The translations under genes were made by a program, and so were the position numbers. From a virus, in the IMG/VR virus record IMGVR_UViG_3300025889_000130, positions 1 through 59,302 of that record: a stretch of DNA of 59,302 nucleotides; one strand, given 5' to 3'. Shown here piece after piece: positions 46,580-59,302 of the stretch (position 1 is its first letter; each line of letters begins with the position of its first letter). The notes below the pieces were generated by a model. The model worked only from the letters and a program-made list of their open reading frames with translations. It searched no databases and was not told the origin of the DNA.

Positions 46580-47494
46580 ATGGGTTACTTTAGGAATAAT
46601 TATGGAGACCAAGATATTTATATATCTGGTCAAAAATTAAGGGGTGTACAATCTACGGATGCATCTTTTAGTATTCCTTTTGAGCCTATTAAAGTAGCAG
46701 GGGTTGGCTATTTAGATAATACAATAAATTCCAATCTAGAAGGGTCTGTTAGTGTTAATAGGTATGTTGTCTCTAATGAAGATCCAATTACTGGATTTTT
46801 TACACAGCCAATATCTGGGCATTTGCGATATGGGACTGGAAATAACCCTCTTATTTTTTCTTTTCATAGAGGTCAAATAAATTCTTATTCTTCTTCGTGT
46901 AGTGTAGGCGGAGTCCCAGAGCTAAATTTTGAAATATCAGCTTATGGTAATATTGGATCTGGTGTTTCTACAGGAATTGAGCAGCCTAATAATGAAACTA
47001 TTGCAATAGCCAGACCAGGGGATATTATTTTTGAAGGAGTTTCTGGGCAGTCTACAAACAGGATACAATCTTACAATTATGAAATATCAGTACCAAGAAC
47101 TCCTATTTATGTTTTAGGATCGGGATTTGAGCCAGCTTACTTTAATATAGATTATCCAATCGAAATTAATTTAAGTTTTGATATGGATGTGGACGATTTG
47201 CAGTCGGAAGATATGCATGACCTAGTATGCAACCAGCCAAAGAACGACATCTCTATTACATTAAGCGGGTGCAATCTTAATAATTTTTTAAGAAAATTTA
47301 TCTTACCTAATCCTATTTTTTTAGGTGTGGATTATAGTAGTTCTATTGATAATGATTTATCGGCTACTATAAGATATAAGTCATATATTAATAATATAAA
47401 TGATATTGCTCCTTTAATTGGAGGAGGACAAATATTTATTGATGTTAATGTGGTTGGAGGTGGAACGGTTCAATTTGTAGAGTTTTTTGATTAA
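46580..47494 (+). CDS. Tail-tube-like protein 2, 304 aa
   Basis: IAIARPGDIIFEGV..., then YNYEISVPRTPIYVLGSGFEPAYFNIDYPIEINLSFDMDVDDLQ...MHDLVCNQPKNDISITLSG aligns with the 45211 protein (PGDII, I..P......LGS.F, DYP, C..A/Q). Likely a minor tube, tail-tip hub or baseplate component with the tube fold. TAATG overlap to the next, mucin-like gene. Confidence 0.55.
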   Translation: MGYFRNNYGDQDIYISGQKLRGVQSTDASFSIPFEPIKVAGVGYLDNTINSNLEGSVSVNRYVVSNEDPITGFFTQPISGHLRYGTGNNPLIFSFHRGQINSYSSSCSVGGVPELNFEISAYGNIGSGVSTGIEQPNNETIAIARPGDIIFEGVSGQSTNRIQSYNYEISVPRTPIYVLGSGFEPAYFNIDYPIEINLSFDMDVDDLQSEDMHDLVCNQPKNDISITLSGCNLNNFLRKFILPNPIFLGVDYSSSIDNDLSATIRYKSYINNINDIAPLIGGGQIFIDVNVVGGGTVQFVEFFD

Positions 47495-50052
47495 TGGCTA
47501 GATATACAATACCATATGGTAAGAACGCCAAATTTAGAATTACTCCTGATCCTGGGAATAAGATTAGTAGTATTATTTTAAATGGTCAAGATTACTCTTT
47601 TAAAATAAATCCTCCAAGCACATCAGCAATGGATTTCATTGTTTATAGTGCTAGTTTTAATCAAGTATTAGAAGTAACTTTTACAGAACATGTAACTACA
47701 ACTGCAAGTCCGACTACAACCTCGGGCCCTACTACAACTGTATCGCCAGCTATCACTACCACTACATCTGCTCCAATTACAGATGGTATTTGTATTGAAA
47801 ATGTATCTAACGGAGTTCCAAATGGAACTTATCAAAAATCCAGCGAATTATTTTCAGAAAAATCGTATTGGTATAATAACAGCTTATCAACAACATATTA
47901 TGTTTTATGGTCAAATGAGCATTCTCAATGGGTCATTACAAATATTTTAAGCGATTCTGGTTGGATTTATTATGGGCCAAGTTCCACTCATCCTTGGCAA
48001 GGAAATTGGGATATACCAATTATTAGTCAAGAAGAATGTCCTACCACAGCAGTTCCGACCACTACAGCGGTTCCGACCACTACATCGGTTCCAACGACAA
48101 CAGAGGTTCCGACAACAACAGCGGTTCCAACGACAACAGCGGTTCCAACGACAACAGCGGTTCCGACAACAACAGCGGTTCCGACAACAACAGCGGTTCC
48201 GACAACAACAGCGGTTCCAACGACAACAGCGGTTCCAACGACAACAGCGGTTCCGACAACAACAGCGGTTCCAACGACAACAGCGGTTCCAACGACAACA
48301 GCGGTTCCAACGACAACAGCGGTTCCGACGACAACAGCGGTTCCGACGACAACAGCGGTTCCAACGACAACAGCGGTTCCGACAACAACAGCGGTTCCGA
48401 CGACAACGGCGGCTCCTAGCCATTTATGTATTTATTATGTATATAATAGCGGAACGCAGACACTTACTGGTACATTAACTTCTACTGGCTTTGTTAATGG
48501 GAAGGTATATTATGAAGTAACTACTTGGCCTTTATCAGGAGATAATCCTTACATGTATTGGAGTTCAATAAATAGCAAATGGTATATAGCCAGCAGCACA
48601 AATCCATCAGATGTAGACTATGAAGAATATGCAGAAATAAGTAGTGCTAACCCTTATGGAAACTGGACTATTAGTACTGGGGATATAAATAGCATTAATA
48701 CTTATGAAGGAATTTGTGCCACAGCGGCTCCAACAACTACAGCTGTTCCGACGACTACCACAGTAGTTCCGACTACTACTACAGTAGTTCCGACGACTAC
48801 AGCGGTTCCAGGAACTACAGCTGTTCCGACGACTACCACAGTAGTTCCGACTACTACTACAGTAGTTCCGACGACTACAGCGGTTCCAGGAACTACAGCA
48901 ACACCAGTCTATCCTTGTGTTTCTGGTGGAAATTCAAACGCAAACGGAACTTATAATCCTGATGGTACTTATAATGGGAAAACCTATTGGTATAATGGTA
49001 GTTACTATATTTATTGGGCTGGCGGCGGTAATTATTGGTATATTGCCGATTCTCTAGGTTCTGGAACTCCATATGATAGTAGCGCTTATGATTTTGATCC
49101 ATGGAACAATAGTTGGGGTTTCATCAGTGTAGATGAAAACTGCCCAACAACTACAGCAACTCCGACGACAACAACAGCAATTCCGACAACAACAGCAGCT
49201 CCGACAACAGTAGCTCCGATAACAACAGCAGCTCCGACAACTACACCAGCTCCGACGACAACTACTACAGCGGCTCCAACAGAAATTGCAGAGAGATTAT
49301 GTGTAAGATATTCGAGCATTGATTATTTTAGCAAATCTATTCTTTGCGAGGAAGGAGAAGATAATATTTCGAATGGAGTTTACTGGGCTATGCTTGGCGC
49401 AGAGGGACTTTATGAATTGGTAAGAGACAATGAATTGAATATTATATACTATAATGGTAAGCCTTATTACCAAAGGTACATGTATCCATATGAAAAATGT
49501 AGCCCTTGCAAATATGAAAAAACTACTCCTTCAGGCACTGCCACTACCATTATACCAGGACCAACTATCAATCCTAACAATGATCCAAATTGTCCGTATT
49601 CAACTGCAACTCCTGGCCCAACTGCAACTCCTGGACCAACTACAACTCCTGGACCAACTACAACTGCGGGTCCGACAACCACAGTAGCTCCATGTGACTT
49701 ATATATTTATTATGAAAATGGTTTGTGGAATATAGCTCCAGTACTTGGAAATCTCGCGAGTTTTGGCGATACTGTATATTCAGATGATTCTTATTATAAA
49801 TCATACAATCCAGGACTTCCAGCTTCGGAAGATTATCCTTGGCTTGTAGGTATGGGAGAAACAAGTTTATATAATCAGTATACCATAATTGCAGATACTC
49901 AAAATGACTGGAATGATTGCGTGGGCGAGGTAGAGTATGTAGAATCAATACAAGGAGGTTTGGATTGTGTCGAGTGCGAGCCACCAACGACCACGCCAAC
50001 TCCAACCACATCAACTCCAATAATTACACCAACAACTACATCAACCCCATAA
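47494..50052 (+). CDS. Large tail protein with Cys-bounded aromatic modules and Thr/Pro linkers
   Basis: 852 aa. A short beta-rich N-domain (1-65, YTIPYGKNAKFRITPDPGNKISSIILNG) is followed by five modules of about 60-100 residues that start and end with Cys and are rich in Tyr/Trp (pattern NGK.YWYNG.YYIYW...WYIAD...DPW..W), separated by Thr/Pro linkers: about 20 tandem AVPTTT units, then TTVVPTTT, TTAAPTTV and TATPGPT versions. Linkers of this kind are extended and, in other systems, O-glycosylated. Probably a surface-exposed tail fibre or adhesin. No chaperone or enzymatic domain seen. Confidence 0.6.
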   Translation: MARYTIPYGKNAKFRITPDPGNKISSIILNGQDYSFKINPPSTSAMDFIVYSASFNQVLEVTFTEHVTTTASPTTTSGPTTTVSPAITTTTSAPITDGICIENVSNGVPNGTYQKSSELFSEKSYWYNNSLSTTYYVLWSNEHSQWVITNILSDSGWIYYGPSSTHPWQGNWDIPIISQEECPTTAVPTTTAVPTTTSVPTTTEVPTTTAVPTTTAVPTTTAVPTTTAVPTTTAVPTTTAVPTTTAVPTTTAVPTTTAVPTTTAVPTTTAVPTTTAVPTTTAVPTTTAVPTTTAVPTTTAVPTTTAAPSHLCIYYVYNSGTQTLTGTLTSTGFVNGKVYYEVTTWPLSGDNPYMYWSSINSKWYIASSTNPSDVDYEEYAEISSANPYGNWTISTGDINSINTYEGICATAAPTTTAVPTTTTVVPTTTTVVPTTTAVPGTTAVPTTTTVVPTTTTVVPTTTAVPGTTATPVYPCVSGGNSNANGTYNPDGTYNGKTYWYNGSYYIYWAGGGNYWYIADSLGSGTPYDSSAYDFDPWNNSWGFISVDENCPTTTATPTTTTAIPTTTAAPTTVAPITTAAPTTTPAPTTTTTAAPTEIAERLCVRYSSIDYFSKSILCEEGEDNISNGVYWAMLGAEGLYELVRDNELNIIYYNGKPYYQRYMYPYEKCSPCKYEKTTPSGTATTIIPGPTINPNNDPNCPYSTATPGPTATPGPTTTPGPTTTAGPTTTVAPCDLYIYYENGLWNIAPVLGNLASFGDTVYSDDSYYKSYNPGLPASEDYPWLVGMGETSLYNQYTIIADTQNDWNDCVGEVEYVESIQGGLDCVECEPPTTTPTPTTSTPIITPTTTSTP
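48050..48412 (+). repeat. 18-bp tandem array encoding AVPTTT, about 20 units
   Basis: Unit GCGGTTCC(G/A)AC(A/G)ACAACA. Units differ mainly at the third positions of Pro and Thr codons, so recent expansion from several unit types is likely. The array is read in one frame; the antisense and shifted open frames here are artefacts of the repeat. Confidence 0.9.
48742..48897 (+). repeat. Perfect tandem duplication of a 78-bp unit
   Basis: 48742-48819 and 48820-48897 are identical, each encoding AVPTTTTVVPTTTTVVPTTT plus AVPGTT. Perfect identity over 78 bp including wobble bases implies a very recent event. Confidence 0.88.
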
Positions 50053-50093: not shown

Positions 50094-52673
50094 ATGAAAA
50101 TCCCTTATACAGTATGGGCAGAAGTAAATGGAAGATTTCGACACCCATTTGCCTCAGATGTTGGAAGATTCCAAGAATATGTTGAAGAAAGCTATAAAAG
50201 ACCATTAATATCTGGGTCTGAACCTCACAGAAGTCGATGGAATCCTAATAATTGTATATATTATGGACTAGGAGAGCCAAGAAGTAATATTGGAGATAAA
50301 TTATTTTTTAATGAAAATAAGGGGTGCTGGCAGTTTGAGGGCAAATTTTACGAAAGCCATGGATATAAAGAGATTTATACAGGAGAACCTGATTGTGATA
50401 TTTTTGGAAAATATTGGTTAGATAAAACTGAAACAGATGCACAACACGATAACCCAGAAGCATTTTATGAATATGATAATCATTATCCTTGTAAGTTTGC
50501 AACAATATCTAAATGTTCACAAGCTGAGGTGCCTGAAGATAAATTTGTAATTTGTAGTATAGCTGGCTGTGATTGCAGTTATGATGATGTCTCAGTTGAG
50601 TGCAAAGCTAATGCTTGGCCAGTTTCAATGTCATTTACTGGGGCATCTTTTCTAAATAATACTACTAGTGTATCTACTGGTACTTATTCTGTAAATAAAG
50701 ATTATGAAACAAGGTTTACAATAGGAGATTCTTTTACTGGAGATTGTGAGACTATCAGTGCTTGTAATAATTGGTCTGGAGAATGTGATGTTGTGCAGTG
50801 TTGTTCATGGACTGGGAAAGCTACTATTAATCACGGCACAGGAGCTCCCCCATGGCTTGATATTTCTATACGATTTAAATCTCATAAAATTTCTGATTAT
50901 CATGATAGAGGCGATCAGTTTCCTTCCGATAATCCAGTATCTAAATATATTCCAAGTCGATTTGGTTGGGAATGGAGTATTTTTGGTGTCGAAGAAATTG
51001 ACACTCCCCCAGATGGTGTAATTTTCTTTACTGGAAGTAAAAATATTTGGCAATGCCCAGACGTTGAAGAATCTAATGACCCACTTACAGAATATCAAGG
51101 ATGTGGCTTTTATGGTAAGAATACCAGCTTAGTATACGCGGCGCAGGTTGATGATGGTGGTGGAGTTGTGAATTTTTACAGTCTTAAACTAACACTAGGA
51201 GGCGAGGGCATGCCTAAGATAGAAAACTGCTGTTATGATGTAGATGGGCGGGATATAGAAGGATTTGGTGCGGTTGATGAAGCTGGTCGGCCATGTACTG
51301 ACAATAGAAAATATGCAGATAGTATTTATTATAATAAGGCTGCCATGGCTACATTTTGCCAAGTAGGATTAATGGGGCCGAGCGATATTAATGAAGCGGG
51401 AACGTATTGGGCTATTTCAAATATATTAGGATCTAATAGTCCAGATGATTATAGTACAGAAGATGGAGATCCGTGGAGCCCTAATACTTGGACCTGTATA
51501 AGTGTTGAGGAACATGCCTGTGCAACAACAACAACGAACCCATTAGCAACAACATTAGCCCCAACAACAGTAACGGCAACAACGACAGTGGGTCCATGTT
51601 TTGGGGTTTCTGATATTTGTGTTACTGATGCAAAAGAAGTAAATATGCTTGGAACATATGTATGTCAAGGAATTTATAATGGTAAAAATTATTGGTATAA
51701 TGGCCAGTATTATATTTATTGGATTACCCTGCCAACTACAACTACAACCGCATCACCAACCACAACTACAACTGCGGGACCAACTCCAATTCCTGGACCA
51801 ACTACAACTGCGGGACCGACCCCAACTCCTGGACCAACTACAACTCCTGGACCAACTACAACTGCGGGACCAACTACGACTATAGAACCAACTACAACTG
51901 CGGGACCAACTACGACTATAAGACCAACCGTGGCCCCAGAGACACCTATATGTTTTTATGATGCAACTTCATTAGTTGTAACGTTATATAAAGTTGAAAA
52001 CTCCTATGGAGAAGATTATTTAATTAACAATAAACCATTTTGGATGGGGTATAATCCAATCAACAGGATTTCATATGTACTTTATTATAATGAGCTTGAC
52101 TATTGGGTATTAAGAGACGGACTAACAATAAGTAATACTACTTATGCAATTTCTGACGATACGGGTATTTCCCATCCTATAGCTGTAAGCAGTTGGAGTT
52201 CAACTGAATTTAATGATCCAGACTTACAAAACGGTCCGTGTCCTACCTATCCTCCAGTAACTACTACAGTTGCTCCAACAACCACACCAGCTCCAACAAC
52301 CACACCAGCTCCAACAACCACACCAGCTCCAACAACCACACCAGCTCCAACAACTACAGCAGCTCCAACAACTACAGCTACTCCAACGACCACTACAGCT
52401 GGGCCATTCGGAACTACTGATGTAGACTTGTGTGTCGATTATAATGGTGGTGGTAGTGAAACGTATGAAGTTTATTCTACTCATAATGGTAAAAATTTAT
52501 GGAGGGGATCAGTCTTGACTACTAGATATTTATATTGGTCAAATACTAATAATAGATGGCAAATTGGAACAGGCACTACTGATTATAGTTTCGGATATTC
52601 ACAATCATATCAATTTGATGAGCCATGGAATGTTACTTGGACTAGCGTTTCTGTTTCTGAGGGATCTTGCTAA
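50094..52673 (+). CDS. Second large tail protein with aromatic modules and Thr/Pro linkers
   Basis: 859 aa. The first 480 residues are unlike the upstream protein: MKIPYTVWAEVNGRFRHPFASDVGRFQEYVEESYKRP, many Cys pairs and WNPNNCIYYGLGEP...YFNENKGCWQFEGKFYESHGYKEIYTGEPDC, perhaps a receptor-facing domain. Then come the same Cys-bounded Tyr/Trp modules (three, the first cut short after YYIYW) joined by TTAGPT, TPGPTTT and TTPAPTTT linkers. Probably assembled on the same tail structure as the 47494 product. Confidence 0.55.
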   Translation: MKIPYTVWAEVNGRFRHPFASDVGRFQEYVEESYKRPLISGSEPHRSRWNPNNCIYYGLGEPRSNIGDKLFFNENKGCWQFEGKFYESHGYKEIYTGEPDCDIFGKYWLDKTETDAQHDNPEAFYEYDNHYPCKFATISKCSQAEVPEDKFVICSIAGCDCSYDDVSVECKANAWPVSMSFTGASFLNNTTSVSTGTYSVNKDYETRFTIGDSFTGDCETISACNNWSGECDVVQCCSWTGKATINHGTGAPPWLDISIRFKSHKISDYHDRGDQFPSDNPVSKYIPSRFGWEWSIFGVEEIDTPPDGVIFFTGSKNIWQCPDVEESNDPLTEYQGCGFYGKNTSLVYAAQVDDGGGVVNFYSLKLTLGGEGMPKIENCCYDVDGRDIEGFGAVDEAGRPCTDNRKYADSIYYNKAAMATFCQVGLMGPSDINEAGTYWAISNILGSNSPDDYSTEDGDPWSPNTWTCISVEEHACATTTTNPLATTLAPTTVTATTTVGPCFGVSDICVTDAKEVNMLGTYVCQGIYNGKNYWYNGQYYIYWITLPTTTTTASPTTTTTAGPTPIPGPTTTAGPTPTPGPTTTPGPTTTAGPTTTIEPTTTAGPTTTIRPTVAPETPICFYDATSLVVTLYKVENSYGEDYLINNKPFWMGYNPINRISYVLYYNELDYWVLRDGLTISNTTYAISDDTGISHPIAVSSWSSTEFNDPDLQNGPCPTYPPVTTTVAPTTTPAPTTTPAPTTTPAPTTTPAPTTTAAPTTTATPTTTTAGPFGTTDVDLCVDYNGGGSETYEVYSTHNGKNLWRGSVLTTRYLYWSNTNNRWQIGTGTTDYSFGYSQSYQFDEPWNVTWTSVSVSEGSC
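51735..51930 (+). repeat. Thr/Pro/Gly linker array with 18-bp periodicity
   Basis: Units such as ACTCCTGGACCAACTACA and ACTGCGGGACCAACTACA (T-P-G-P-T-T and T-A-G-P-T-T). It replaces the second half of an aromatic module. Confidence 0.8.
52256..52400 (+). repeat. Thr/Pro linker array, 18-bp units
   Basis: Four identical CCAGCTCCAACAACCACA units in a row (PAPTTT), then diverged AAPTTT and ATPTTT units. Confidence 0.85.
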
Positions 52674-55761: not shown

Positions 55762-58700
55762 ATGGCTGTTCAAGGAGATATAGGTTTAAGAGTAAGAGCG
55801 ATTGGATTGCAAGAAGATATTGCTCGACAAGCTAATGCTGCACAAAGAACATTAAATAGAACTAGGATTAATTTATCTCTTGATGATCGTTCCTTCCGTC
55901 AACCCCTTGGACGCATTACTGGTGACATGTCGGAGTTTCAAAAGTCTTTGGATGCCTCTACCGCCCGTGTTTTTGCTTTTGGAGCTACAGTTAGTATTAT
56001 TAATGGAATTGCAGACGGTTTCCGTGCGACAGTTGACGCCGTTATTCAAGTTGAAAAAGCTTTGGCAGATATTAATGTTGTAATGGGACTGAGTGCCGAA
56101 GGACTTCAATCTTTTTCTGACAGATTATTTGAGGTTGCTAAAAATACCAGTCAAACTTTTGAAACTGTTGCAAATGCCGCTGTAGAACTTGCAAGACAAG
56201 GATTGGGAGCAGAAGAAACTTTACGTAGGGTTAATGATGCCTTGATATTAACTAGACTTTCAGGTTTAGAGTCAGCCAGAGCAGTAGAAGCTTTAACTGC
56301 CGTAGTTAATGGATTTAGTAAAGCGGGACTAAATACTTCAGATATTATTAATAGGCTTGCAAATGTTGATGCAGCCTTTGCGGTTAGTTCTAAAGATCTT
56401 GCAGACGCCCTTGCTCGTTCTGGAGCGACAGCTCAAGATGCTGGAGTAAGCTTTAATGAACTTTTAGCGGTTATTACCTCCGTCCAGCAACAGACAGCTA
56501 GAGGAGGTGCTGTAATAGGAAATGCATTCAAAAGTATATTTACTAGGCTACAAAGAAGTGGAGTTAGGGAAGCATTAGAAGAAATTGGTGTAGCAACAAC
56601 TGATTCTTTTGGTAATTTTAGGTCTGCTATTGATATACTTAAAGATTATGCAAAAGTTTATGATACTTTAGCTGACGCGCAGCAAGCTTATACCGCAGAA
56701 CAAATTGCTGGAGTATACCAAATCAATAACCTTAGGGCGTTAATTTCTGATTTGAATAAAGAGTTTTCTATATATGGACAAGCATTAAGCCAAGCGGCAA
56801 ATACTACAGATGAAGCTGTTCGAAGAAATGAAGAATTAAATAAGACATTTGCTGCTATGGCAGTTCAGGCTGGACAAAGTTTAACTCAATTGGCTCAAGC
56901 TTTTGGAGAGTTAAGTCTAGAACCTGCAATGGAAAAGGTTTTAGGAATAATACAGACGGTTGTTGACTCAATGAATTCTATGCTTGGAGAAGGAGATGGA
57001 GACAGTTTAATGTCAAAATTTTTCAAAGGAATGGGGCATTTTATTTCTGGCCCAGGACTAGCTTTAGTATCAGCAGCTTTCGGCAAATTATTTATGGTTG
57101 TCGTTAAGCATGGTATGGAAGCACTCAAGGAAATGTTTAAGATATCAAGCGAAGCTCAAAGACAGAAAGCTTTGCAAGAGTCGATTTTAAATATTTTAAT
57201 GAAGGATGAACAGGCTTATAGAAAAATTACTTCTGCCGCTGGAGATCAAAATCGTCAAGCTCAAATACTTTTAGGGATTATTAGGCAAATAAATTCTGAA
57301 TATGCAACTCAGCAACAATTAATTAGTAGCTTAGCAAGATCTCCCGCTCTTCGTGGGATAACTCCTGGACGGCAAGGTTTTACTGGTGTTCGACCACAAA
57401 CAGGAACTTCAGCAGGGGGTTTCAACCCAGAACAGAAAAAAACTTTCGCAGAGGGAGCAATTCCTGAGATTGAAGCATCTGTTAATGCTGGATACGTAAA
57501 CACAGTTCAGCCTCAACAAGTTAGGCAAATGAATATTCCTCAAGTTGGGAATATTATGTATAATACTCAAGAAAGAGTAGTAAAGATGCCTAACGTGGCG
57601 CAACCATTTATTGTGCCCCCAACTTCTTCTAAAGCCTACCCAGGTTATGCTAATACAGTTAAAGAGAATTTTGGAGAAAAAATGGGCAATATGGTGCTTG
57701 GGAGAGCATTTACTCCAGCTCAACGATCTTTTGCCGAAGACTTAAATCCGACTGCTAAATATAATTCAATTATAGAAAAACAATCAGCCAAAGGTTTAGT
57801 GCCGAATTATGCAGCTAGAATGATTGGAAGTCGAAAAGATTTTGATGACTTGGGATTAGGGATTGGTAGCAGCATGTCTTTCGAGCGATCTGTTGATAAG
57901 AATTATCAAGAATTTATTAAGGCGAATAACTTAAATCAACCTCGCACATCTAAAGAAATGTCTATCGTTGAGGGTGGCAATAGCATAAGACTAAACCAAG
58001 ATATTGCAAAAATATTAAAAAGTGGAGGGAAAAATCCAGATTTACAATGGGATGGATCAAATTTTAAATCAGGTTATAAATATGAGTTTGATTACGGCGG
58101 AAAAACTATAATTGCTACTGGAAAAGAATTTAAAGAGCTTTTTTCAAAATCAGAAAGTGGAAAATATTCAATGCGAAAGGAGAGTGGGCTCGCAAAAGTA
58201 GCGCATGATCCAAGCGTCCCACAGGTTCATAAAATAAATGAAGATGTATCAATGTTAGTACCTCTTCCAATGGGCAACGCCGCCACTCAGGAAAATGTTA
58301 TTATAAGTGGCCAAGAATTACTAAAAACAATTAGCTTAACGGAAGTTGGTAAATTGGGCTTGGTTCCGAAAGGTGAAAACGCAAAAGAAACTGCAGCAAA
58401 ATTAAAAAACAATTTAATCAATGATACTTTTCAAGTTGGATTTAAAACATCTGGCATACAAGAATTTGATGATAATGTAACCTTAAGGGATGCGATAGAT
58501 AGAGATATGAGTAATGCCATATCGGGCATAATAAAAAATAACGCAAATAAAGTTTTAGGAAGTAAGTCTAGTACATTCAAACTTAATACTGCTGATATAG
58601 ATGCGAGGGCCAAGAGTTTAGTGCAACAAAATTCTTCACTTGCTGGATTCTTATTTGAGGAAGTTATTACGTCAGCTATTAATAAATCTTCTGCTTTTGA

Positions 58701-59302
58701 TGAGAAGGATCAATACAGAAGATGGGATTTTAATGCTGGGGACAAGCCAGCATTAAATGAAATTTTTGATAGGGCTGTTGGAGAATTGTCTGACGCAAAA
58801 AGAACTCCAAGCCCATTGGCTAAAGTTTCAATTGGTAAAAAAAGTCTTTTTGCTACTCCACAAGGAAATCGAATTTTACGAAAAGCAGTTAATTCAGCAA
58901 ATGGATTTAGCCCAGATCCTGTAAGTTTTGGCGGAGAAAAGCAATTAAATAAAAATATTAAAAATGCCGCAGAAGGCTTGGTTCCAAATTTTGCAGGGAG
59001 AAGCAATGGGTTTACTAGGTATATAAATTACAACAAATATAAAGGAAGGGAGAGCGTAAGAGCGAGTACATTAACCTCTGCACAAAGGGGTGAGAATGCA
59101 TACAACGATTTTATTAAAACGGGCCGTATTTCTGATGTGATGAATATACCTCATGTGGTTGCCCACGCAGTAAAGGGAACGGGAGGAGGGTGGTCTGCCC
59201 TAAAAAAGGATTCAGAATCATTGCGTCGTTTAAAAGAGTTCGATTCTAAGAATCCTGGGTACTTAACTTTTAGCGAAATAACCGAGGGTAATTTGCAGAA
59301 TA
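55762..59302 (+). CDS. Tape measure protein with embedded nuclease-like region, 3'-truncated by window edge
   Basis: Open for 1180 codons to the window end. Residues 50-330 match the TP901-type tail tape measure core (VFAFGATVSIINGIADGF, LADINVVMGLS, FETVANAAVELARQG, ARGGAVIGNAFKSIFTRL). One hydrophobic span lies near 425-445. After about residue 520 the protein changes: GLVPNYA at 678-684 and GLVPNFA at 1072-1078 bracket about 390 residues that include LAGFLFEEVI (F965-E967), RRWDF (D989) and ELSDAKRT (D1011, K1013), a PD-(D/E)XK-like set. The tape measure sets tail length and may enter the cell; embedded enzyme is inference. Confidence 0.8.
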   Translation, partial: MAVQGDIGLRVRAIGLQEDIARQANAAQRTLNRTRINLSLDDRSFRQPLGRITGDMSEFQKSLDASTARVFAFGATVSIINGIADGFRATVDAVIQVEKALADINVVMGLSAEGLQSFSDRLFEVAKNTSQTFETVANAAVELARQGLGAEETLRRVNDALILTRLSGLESARAVEALTAVVNGFSKAGLNTSDIINRLANVDAAFAVSSKDLADALARSGATAQDAGVSFNELLAVITSVQQQTARGGAVIGNAFKSIFTRLQRSGVREALEEIGVATTDSFGNFRSAIDILKDYAKVYDTLADAQQAYTAEQIAGVYQINNLRALISDLNKEFSIYGQALSQAANTTDEAVRRNEELNKTFAAMAVQAGQSLTQLAQAFGELSLEPAMEKVLGIIQTVVDSMNSMLGEGDGDSLMSKFFKGMGHFISGPGLALVSAAFGKLFMVVVKHGMEALKEMFKISSEAQRQKALQESILNILMKDEQAYRKITSAAGDQNRQAQILLGIIRQINSEYATQQQLISSLARSPALRGITPGRQGFTGVRPQTGTSAGGFNPEQKKTFAEGAIPEIEASVNAGYVNTVQPQQVRQMNIPQVGNIMYNTQERVVKMPNVAQPFIVPPTSSKAYPGYANTVKENFGEKMGNMVLGRAFTPAQRSFAEDLNPTAKYNSIIEKQSAKGLVPNYAARMIGSRKDFDDLGLGIGSSMSFERSVDKNYQEFIKANNLNQPRTSKEMSIVEGGNSIRLNQDIAKILKSGGKNPDLQWDGSNFKSGYKYEFDYGGKTIIATGKEFKELFSKSESGKYSMRKESGLAKVAHDPSVPQVHKINEDVSMLVPLPMGNAATQENVIISGQELLKTISLTEVGKLGLVPKGENAKETAAKLKNNLINDTFQVGFKTSGIQEFDDNVTLRDAIDRDMSNAISGIIKNNANKVLGSKSSTFKLNTADIDARAKSLVQQNSSLAGFLFEEVITSAINKSSAFDEKDQYRRWDFNAGDKPALNEIFDRAVGELSDAKRTPSPLAKVSIGKKSLFATPQGNRILRKAVNSANGFSPDPVSFGGEKQLNKNIKNAAEGLVPNFAGRSNGFTRYINYNKYKGRESVRASTLTSAQRGENAYNDFIKTGRISDVMNIPHVVAHAVKGTGGGWSALKKDSESLRRLKEFDSKNPGYLTFSEITEGNLQN

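Follow-up and report, generated by a model that had tools for sequence, protein, structure and literature searches.

Tape-measure proteins (TMPs) are usually viewed as rulers and channel formers of phage tails; they fill the tail tube and exit at infection. The last gene of the 59,302-base IMG/VR virus record IMGVR_UViG_3300025889_000130, the whole of which is referred to here as the window, raises the question of whether a TMP can also be the carrier of an exchangeable enzyme. An earlier reading of the sequence (here, the original prediction) had described an embedded PD-(D/E)XK-like region in this TMP, framed by two GLVPN(Y/F)A motifs. Here, we present a computational analysis of this gene and of related TMPs. 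Our analysis confirms the observation and partly supports the interpretation given to it; moreover, the finding extends past the window, i.e., it concerns an exchangeable cargo region in the TMPs of an uncultured phage group. Based on sequence comparisons, we propose, with a probability of roughly 0.55, that this region is a nuclease-like cargo cassette with a PD-(D/E)XK-type site that would be delivered at infection and would cut nucleic acid.

The window TMP and its parts

The TMP gene lacks a stop codon and is cut by the contig end. As the original prediction held, the protein has a normal TP901 core: PF10145 matches residues 126-317 (E 1.3e-29; 103.9 bits versus a curated cut-off of 33.2), which places it among the TP901-type TMPs, and many PHROG tape-measure families match the core, the best being phrog_4211 (E 3e-52). 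The strings on which the prediction was built, GLVPNYA (residues 678-684), FEE (965-967), RRWDF (with D989), ELSDAKRT (with D1011 and K1013), and GLVPNFA (1072-1078), are all present at these residues, and so is the beginning of a further domain after the second motif. The parts of the gene are the following.

55762..59301, + strand: TMP gene, 1180 aa, open at the window end
55765..57198, + strand: TP901-type TMP core, residues 2-479 (PF10145 at 56137-56712)
57793..57813, + strand: first border motif, GLVPNYA, residues 678-684
57814..58974, + strand: inter-motif segment, residues 685-1071, with a poorly conserved N-terminal part
58531..58887, + strand: nuclease-like cassette, residues 924-1042 (profile match E 2.1e-26)
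58645..58659, + strand: G962-F-L-F-E966, with the first acidic residue in a predicted helix
58726..58728, + strand: D989, within WDF, invariant in 148 of 148 aligned copies
58792..58800, + strand: D1011-A-K1013, the (D/E)xK site
58840..58842, + strand: K1027, K or Q in relatives, in the next helix
58975..58995, + strand: second border motif, GLVPNFA, residues 1072-1078
58996..59301, + strand: beginning of a further inter-motif domain, cut by the contig end; no family found

The TMP of the nearest relative, L002, comprises at least 3024 residues, is also open, and is 64% identical to the window TMP in the best segment (query residues 4-665). The elements of the window TMP recur in L002 in the same order, there as GLVPNYA - FEDIV..RTWDF..SDAKR - GLVPNFA, and beyond GLVPNFA, L002 continues with GLVPNLA, GVVPNFA, GIIPNFA, and GIVPNYA. 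Identity is 53% over the site-bearing residues 961-1020, 33% at residues 801-923, and 11% at residues 685-800. L002 also contains a second, divergent cassette copy in the same TMP (L002:13333-14103, with HRLELKST), and two copies are present in 8 of the 124 non-redundant cassette-bearing open reading frames (ORFs) described below.

A conserved nuclease-like site

The site residues in the window are G962-x-x-F-E966, D989, D1011-x-K1013, and K1027. The order E, D, (D/E)xK given in the original prediction stands, while the conserved Glu has to be corrected to E966 within G962-F-L-F-E966, and K1027 is a further conserved residue. Among 46 sequences, of which the other 45 are 14-42% identical to the window, the G, D, and K are invariant and the F, E, and last K are conserved at 90% or more. 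Among 148 aligned copies, for which the percentages lean high because the profile favors such residues, G is present in 100%, F in 93%, E in 95% (D in 5%), and the central D in 100%; the third site is D (71%) or E (29%), followed by any residue and K (100% of the 146 rows with a residue); and the last site, in the next helix, is K (88%) or Q (12%). A lack of conservation of these residues had been named as grounds for abandoning the original prediction; instead, they are conserved far beyond the window in both sets.

The distance from E to D is 18-34 residues and that from D to (D/E) is 18-37, while that from K to K/Q is mostly 14. The alternation of D and E at the third site is expected of a metal-binding carboxylate. 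The order GxxxE or GxxFE, D, (D/E)xK is typical of the MutH and Mrr families, and the combination of E, D, (D/E)xK, and K/Q in this order at such spacings is not known to us from any other enzyme family. The elements E...D...(D/E)xK that define PD-(D/E)XK enzymes are found in order and conserved among relatives. We suggest that the cassette is a putative member of the PD-(D/E)XK superfamily, an assignment supported by motif and conservation and not by fold.

The comparisons of fold and family weigh against this assignment. AlphaFold models were generated for window residues 800-1077 using 46 sequences (pLDDT 77.6, and >90 across most of the site; pTM 0.64) and for L110 using 119 sequences (pLDDT 83.1; pTM 0.74). 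In both models, the E is in a helix, the D and the (D/E)xK are on or beside short strands, and the K/Q is in the next helix; however, there is little strand around the site, unlike in the textbook alpha-beta-beta-beta-alpha-beta core. Foldseek searches of the PDB with both models, and of viral models with the first, returned nothing at E ≤ 0.001 and no nuclease; the rows obtained (hemoglobins, CelTOS, and septin and Rab GTPases) all have E values above 0.07 and look like noise. Similarly, VIA-align with both models gave no Z ≥ 5 and listed no nuclease, which excludes nothing. Comparisons with Mrr, MutH, UPF0102, and NERD using hhalign were not significant; because MutH, a true member, also fails against its own superfamily, this four-family test is underpowered; hhalign comparisons among the cassette types were no more informative. 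When the cassette was compared with Pfam, PHROGs, PADLOC, and PDB sequences, no family and single weak matches only were found. The best PDB profile matches were lectins, via the GxxFE stretch (E 1.3e-4 for the whole sequence and 0.036 per stretch). A lectin identity was set aside because the match covers GxxFE to D only, each stretch has an E value of 0.036 or worse, and these lectins are beta-propellers.

These results bear on the alternative that the conserved residues mark not a nuclease but a different fold, i.e., that of a binding domain or of some other metal or nucleotide enzyme. While the lack of a nuclease fold or profile match and the helical models with short strands are in line with this explanation, the order E, D, (D/E)xK, K/Q, the D/E alternation, and the spacings of 18-37 constitute a nuclease signature, and the PADLOC REase_II model has a weak match in 1 of 119 members (E 0.0048). 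We therefore regard a different fold as unlikely, although it deserves to be kept in mind.

Distribution of the cassette

The sources, 234 in all with the window, came from two pattern scans of the virus collection (at least 120 stretches each) and a few small additions. They contain 2500 ORFs of at least 100 aa, of which 226 bear the motif and 173 bear two or more. A first profile was built from 31 seeds chosen by regular expression (34 minus the doubtful L041, L043, and L114), the window being among them. This profile matched 58 of 114 ORFs, including 27 non-seeds with E values down to 3.6e-26. The window TMP, itself a seed, matches the cassette profile with a domain E of 2.1e-26, whereas the best E values for reversed and shuffled TMPs were 0.054 and 0.17, which argues that the cassette is beyond chance. 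An iterated profile matched 140 ORFs among the 2500, every one of them motif-bearing, and no reversed ORF.

After removal of redundancy at 80% identity, 184 ORFs remained, 124 of them with the cassette; the TMP core is also present in 102 of these 124. The original prediction had proposed a profile search for motif-framed domains in other TMPs, and this search located the cassette in 94 of the 111 non-redundant TMPs having the core and at least 600 residues after it; because most loci were selected by the motif, this fraction applies to that class, which tempers it as support for our proposal. The strict motif is present on both sides of 88 of the 124 cassettes, with many ORFs being cut and the motif rule being strict. 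Among the 17 TMPs without a profile match, two, L097 and L199, have the site on visual inspection; L097 had been matched by the first profile but not by the iterated one, which also missed L199. L040 and L120 have a different, nuclease-like cassette, G-x-x-Y-E..VDAxD..FFExK. Besides the main cassette, two E..D..ExK types in all were observed in such TMPs (L063/L015/L033 and L120/L040/L026), with no Pfam match.

An independent test was a search by the cassette only, using the patterns IFEAAVN and [AS]QKPFDF, with at least 600 candidate stretches and within one close subfamily. At least 19 loci were confirmed, and in 19 of 19 the ORF that contains the cassette also has GxVPN or GxIPN motifs, in which the last motif letter is often S, T, V, or N instead of A. 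The TMP core is present in 17 of these loci, and the other two are cut at the contig start. Importantly, 11 of the 19 have no 100-mer in common with the earlier loci, and in 11 of 11 the motif is in the TMP.

Searches with the window insert itself were less productive. A close-relative search gave four stretches that matched a pattern, none of which was confirmed; tblastn gave no match among the annotated phages of the collection; and a single-cassette search returned its own contig only. Among the matches listed, cultured phages in the collection match the window TMP in the core only, with <30% identity. A pattern scan of genome contigs gave 24 stretches versus ~15 by chance (our rough estimate), of which L125, L131, L141, and L146, all on short contigs from metagenome-assembled genomes, alone resemble such TMPs; we therefore assign no host to these phages.

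The near-universal presence of the cassette in this class, at a similar position not far after the core, would also suit a role inside the virion, in DNA-end processing or holding, tail assembly, or channel opening, rather than as a delivered effector. The exchange of cassettes and the other domains between the motifs bear on this alternative.

Exchange of cassettes between related TMPs

For 35 pairs of TMPs with cores that are 80-90% identical, the best cassette identity has a median of 34% and is under 35% in 18 of the 35. For comparison, cassette identity is 28% in 300 unrelated pairs, and the 60 residues after the core are 73% identical in the 35 pairs. In 19 pairs with a core identity of ≥90%, cassette identity is 92%. 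L202 and L168 illustrate such an exchange: they are 88% identical up to residue 641 (the L168 motif is at 633), beyond which identity is undetectable until it returns at residue 887 with 70% (motif at 893). L184 and L223 are similar. A stretch with ≥45% identity is regained downstream in 23 of 37 such pairs. The upstream breakpoints are ≤15 residues from a motif in 12 of 22 pairs versus 11.5% at random; however, the downstream breakpoints were usable in two pairs only, neither of them at a motif, and this speaks against our proposal. The pairs share members (26 TMPs), and the exchange counts are, therefore, not independent. Rapid exchange around a fixed active site is a pattern that arms races produce.

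Swapping would also follow if the cassette were a homing or intein-type endonuclease spreading into the TMP gene. TMP genes are targets of homing endonucleases and introns, with phage ICP1 as an example, in which an intron splits the TMP gene (PMC10448857). The loci described here have a nuclease sequence inside the TMP locus in common with this case, but they consist of one continuous frame without splice signals. Across 532 motif contexts, there is no conserved Cys/Ser/Thr after the motif and no His-Asn before it, as would mark a splice junction; moreover, the cassette is present in most members rather than sporadically, and non-nuclease enzymes share the same borders. We consider a homing or intein-type origin very improbable.

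Other domains between the motifs

The 80-kb record G200 (L381, L382, and L385) has a single TMP frame of 10,566 aa (14090-45787, - strand), which is ~40% of the record; TMP genes of ~10 kb in Gordonia phages have been described as "among the longest" (PMC4982279). The first piece of the G200 TMP contains the core at 7-481, the nuclease-like cassette at 777-855, and motifs at 1230, 1347, and 1530, followed by a PolyA_pol domain at 1576-1701 (E 4.1e-19) and an RNA-binding domain at 1730-1787. The next piece opens with a tRNA_NucTran2_2 match (E 1.7e-7), which precedes the first motif of that piece. Together, these three domains read as one complete, predicted CCA-adding enzyme between motifs 1530 and 2053 (piece lengths added). 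Similarly, L384 has PolyA_pol at 1241-1368 between motifs 1207 and 1965, and L116 has a GNAT domain (22.1 bits versus a cut-off of 20.7) between motifs 997 and 1379. One cluster, of 19 segments, represents a recurrent Walker-A (P-loop) cassette with a weak Pfam AAA match (0.0081); L255:3943-4413 and 18 similar segments have a GPxGSGKST-like sequence and are possibly kinases or NTPases.

In total, the 184 ORFs contain 357 inter-motif segments, 92 of which contain the nuclease-like cassette. The 264 other segments of at least 40 aa form 72 clusters, the largest of which has 108 members and represents a short NPxG..DEP module. In the L196 ORF (residues 1183-1252), for instance, this module is 70 aa long, reads EAIxREx.AGV..NPxGLxVANRRDEP, and is located between a late motif pair.

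The original prediction had suggested that such motifs mark the borders of inserted domains. This is borne out for exchangeable enzyme domains by the CCA-adding enzyme, the GNAT domain, and the L202/L168 pair, the breakpoint statistics applying to the upstream border only. As for the alternative role of the cassette inside the virion, near-identical cores carry very divergent replacement cassettes, and CCA-adding, GNAT, and P-loop domains, which are unneeded for tail assembly, are present between the same motifs. We find such a role rather hard to reconcile with these observations and consider it improbable.

The border motif

The motif occurs 541 times in the 184 non-redundant ORFs versus 0 in shuffles, with the loci having been picked for at least one occurrence. 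In the window, it is confined to the TMP gene. In 15 virus records (54.7-178 kb), 86 of 86 motif matches are on one strand and form one short cluster (the TMP) per record, while a reversed control pattern has 0 matches; thus, in these records, the motif is a code specific to the TMP rather than a general maturation site. The consensus from the 532 contexts is A(73%)-x-G-[FY]-[IV]-P-N-F-A, in which G, P, N, and the last A were fixed by the regular expression. Conservation is one-sided, i.e., it spans ~ten residues up to the last Ala, with near-zero information beyond.

We speculate that the motif could be a release site. Alternatively, and compatible with our proposal of a cargo cassette, GxVPNFA may link the domains structurally or allow a tail protein or a chaperone to dock, with the domains staying joined. 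The confinement of the motif to TMPs and the variation of its last position to S, T, N, V, and others fit this explanation, while conservation that ends at the last Ala resembles a cleavage site read from its N-terminal side, although this is not decisive. We give a linker or docking function close to an even chance.

Two side observations concern related sequences. L050, L076, L096, L043, and L114 form a family of ~1830 aa that lacks the TMP core; these proteins contain a metallopeptidase-like HEYxHS motif as well as a single GFVPNFA (residue 1629-1632) and have a polyvalent-protein look. In the window, two proteins encoded 5' of the TMP gene (47494-50052 and 50094-52673) have long VPTTTA/PTTT repeat runs between small similar domains.

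Comparison with known systems

In the open-access PMC literature, as distinct from subscription journals and preprints, we found no report of such TMP cassettes, nor any of the VPNFA motif in phages. Phages and conjugative elements encode polyvalent proteins, which have many effector domains (GNAT, Pol-beta-type nucleotidyltransferase, and nucleases) per long chain; they are thought to be injected with the DNA, and release by processing has been proposed (Iyer et al. 2017; PMC5512222). Words beginning with "tape" are absent from that article, whereas here a TMP is the carrier, a short repeated motif forms the borders, and the main cassette, for which there is no Pfam match, is PD-(D/E)XK-like. 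The presence of at least two distinct effector domains per chain, by which polyvalent proteins are recognized, is seen in relatives of the window TMP that combine the cassette with a CCA-adding enzyme; the cut window protein has one recognized cassette only.

The effector Tme of a Streptomyces contractile injection system is related to TMPs and has an endonuclease domain of demonstrated activity (PMC11126660). As in Tme, TMP homology and a nuclease domain, here a predicted one, are combined in one chain with a tail-like carrier. However, Tme is bacterial and has a single C-terminal domain of the EndA type (DRGH), while the cassette described here is internal, of another type, exchangeable, and encoded by phages; DRGH is absent from the available 1180 aa of the window TMP, the remainder of which is cut off. 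In comparison with the TP901-type TMPs (PF10145; phrog_4211), the window TMP has the core in common, but its insert is without a match in the cultured phages of the collection. Finally, the residue order is like that of MutH and Mrr, and the Glu stretch aligns, but there is no significant profile or fold match.

A model for cargo delivery by TMPs

In our model, the TMP core (residues 2-479) and the distal tape would perform the ordinary tail job. Between them, A-x-G-[FYL]-[IV]-P-N-F-A motifs separate domains that are swapped among phages, the window cassette being the commonest type and having a predicted active site of the metal-dependent-nuclease type (E966, D989, D1011-x-K1013, and K1027). 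As part of the TMP, the cassette would be loaded in the tail lumen and exit the tail with the TMP at infection; because TMPs are ejected, we infer that it would reach the host. Once released or exposed, the cassette may cut nucleic acid early in infection, either in the envelope or in the cytoplasm, and would be one of several enzymes delivered in this way.

A more far-reaching version of this model, which we offer tentatively and regard as possible rather than probable, is that these TMPs are enzyme magazines in which the code A-[AS]-x-G-[FY]-[IV]-P-N-F-A separates the cargo. The cargo, which is a PD-(D/E)XK-like nuclease in most TMPs and in others includes acetyltransferases, P-loop proteins, and CCA-adding enzymes, would pass through the tail, reach the host together with the DNA or ahead of it, and be cut apart at the code, and the nuclease alleles would be exchanged like polymorphic toxins in the fight against hosts or rival phages.

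If many TMPs carry exchangeable enzymes, infection by any virion would start with the entry of weapons or repair tools into the cell. The border motif would then be a handle for finding such cargo, and the long-standing question of the role of the ejected tape measure would become directly testable.

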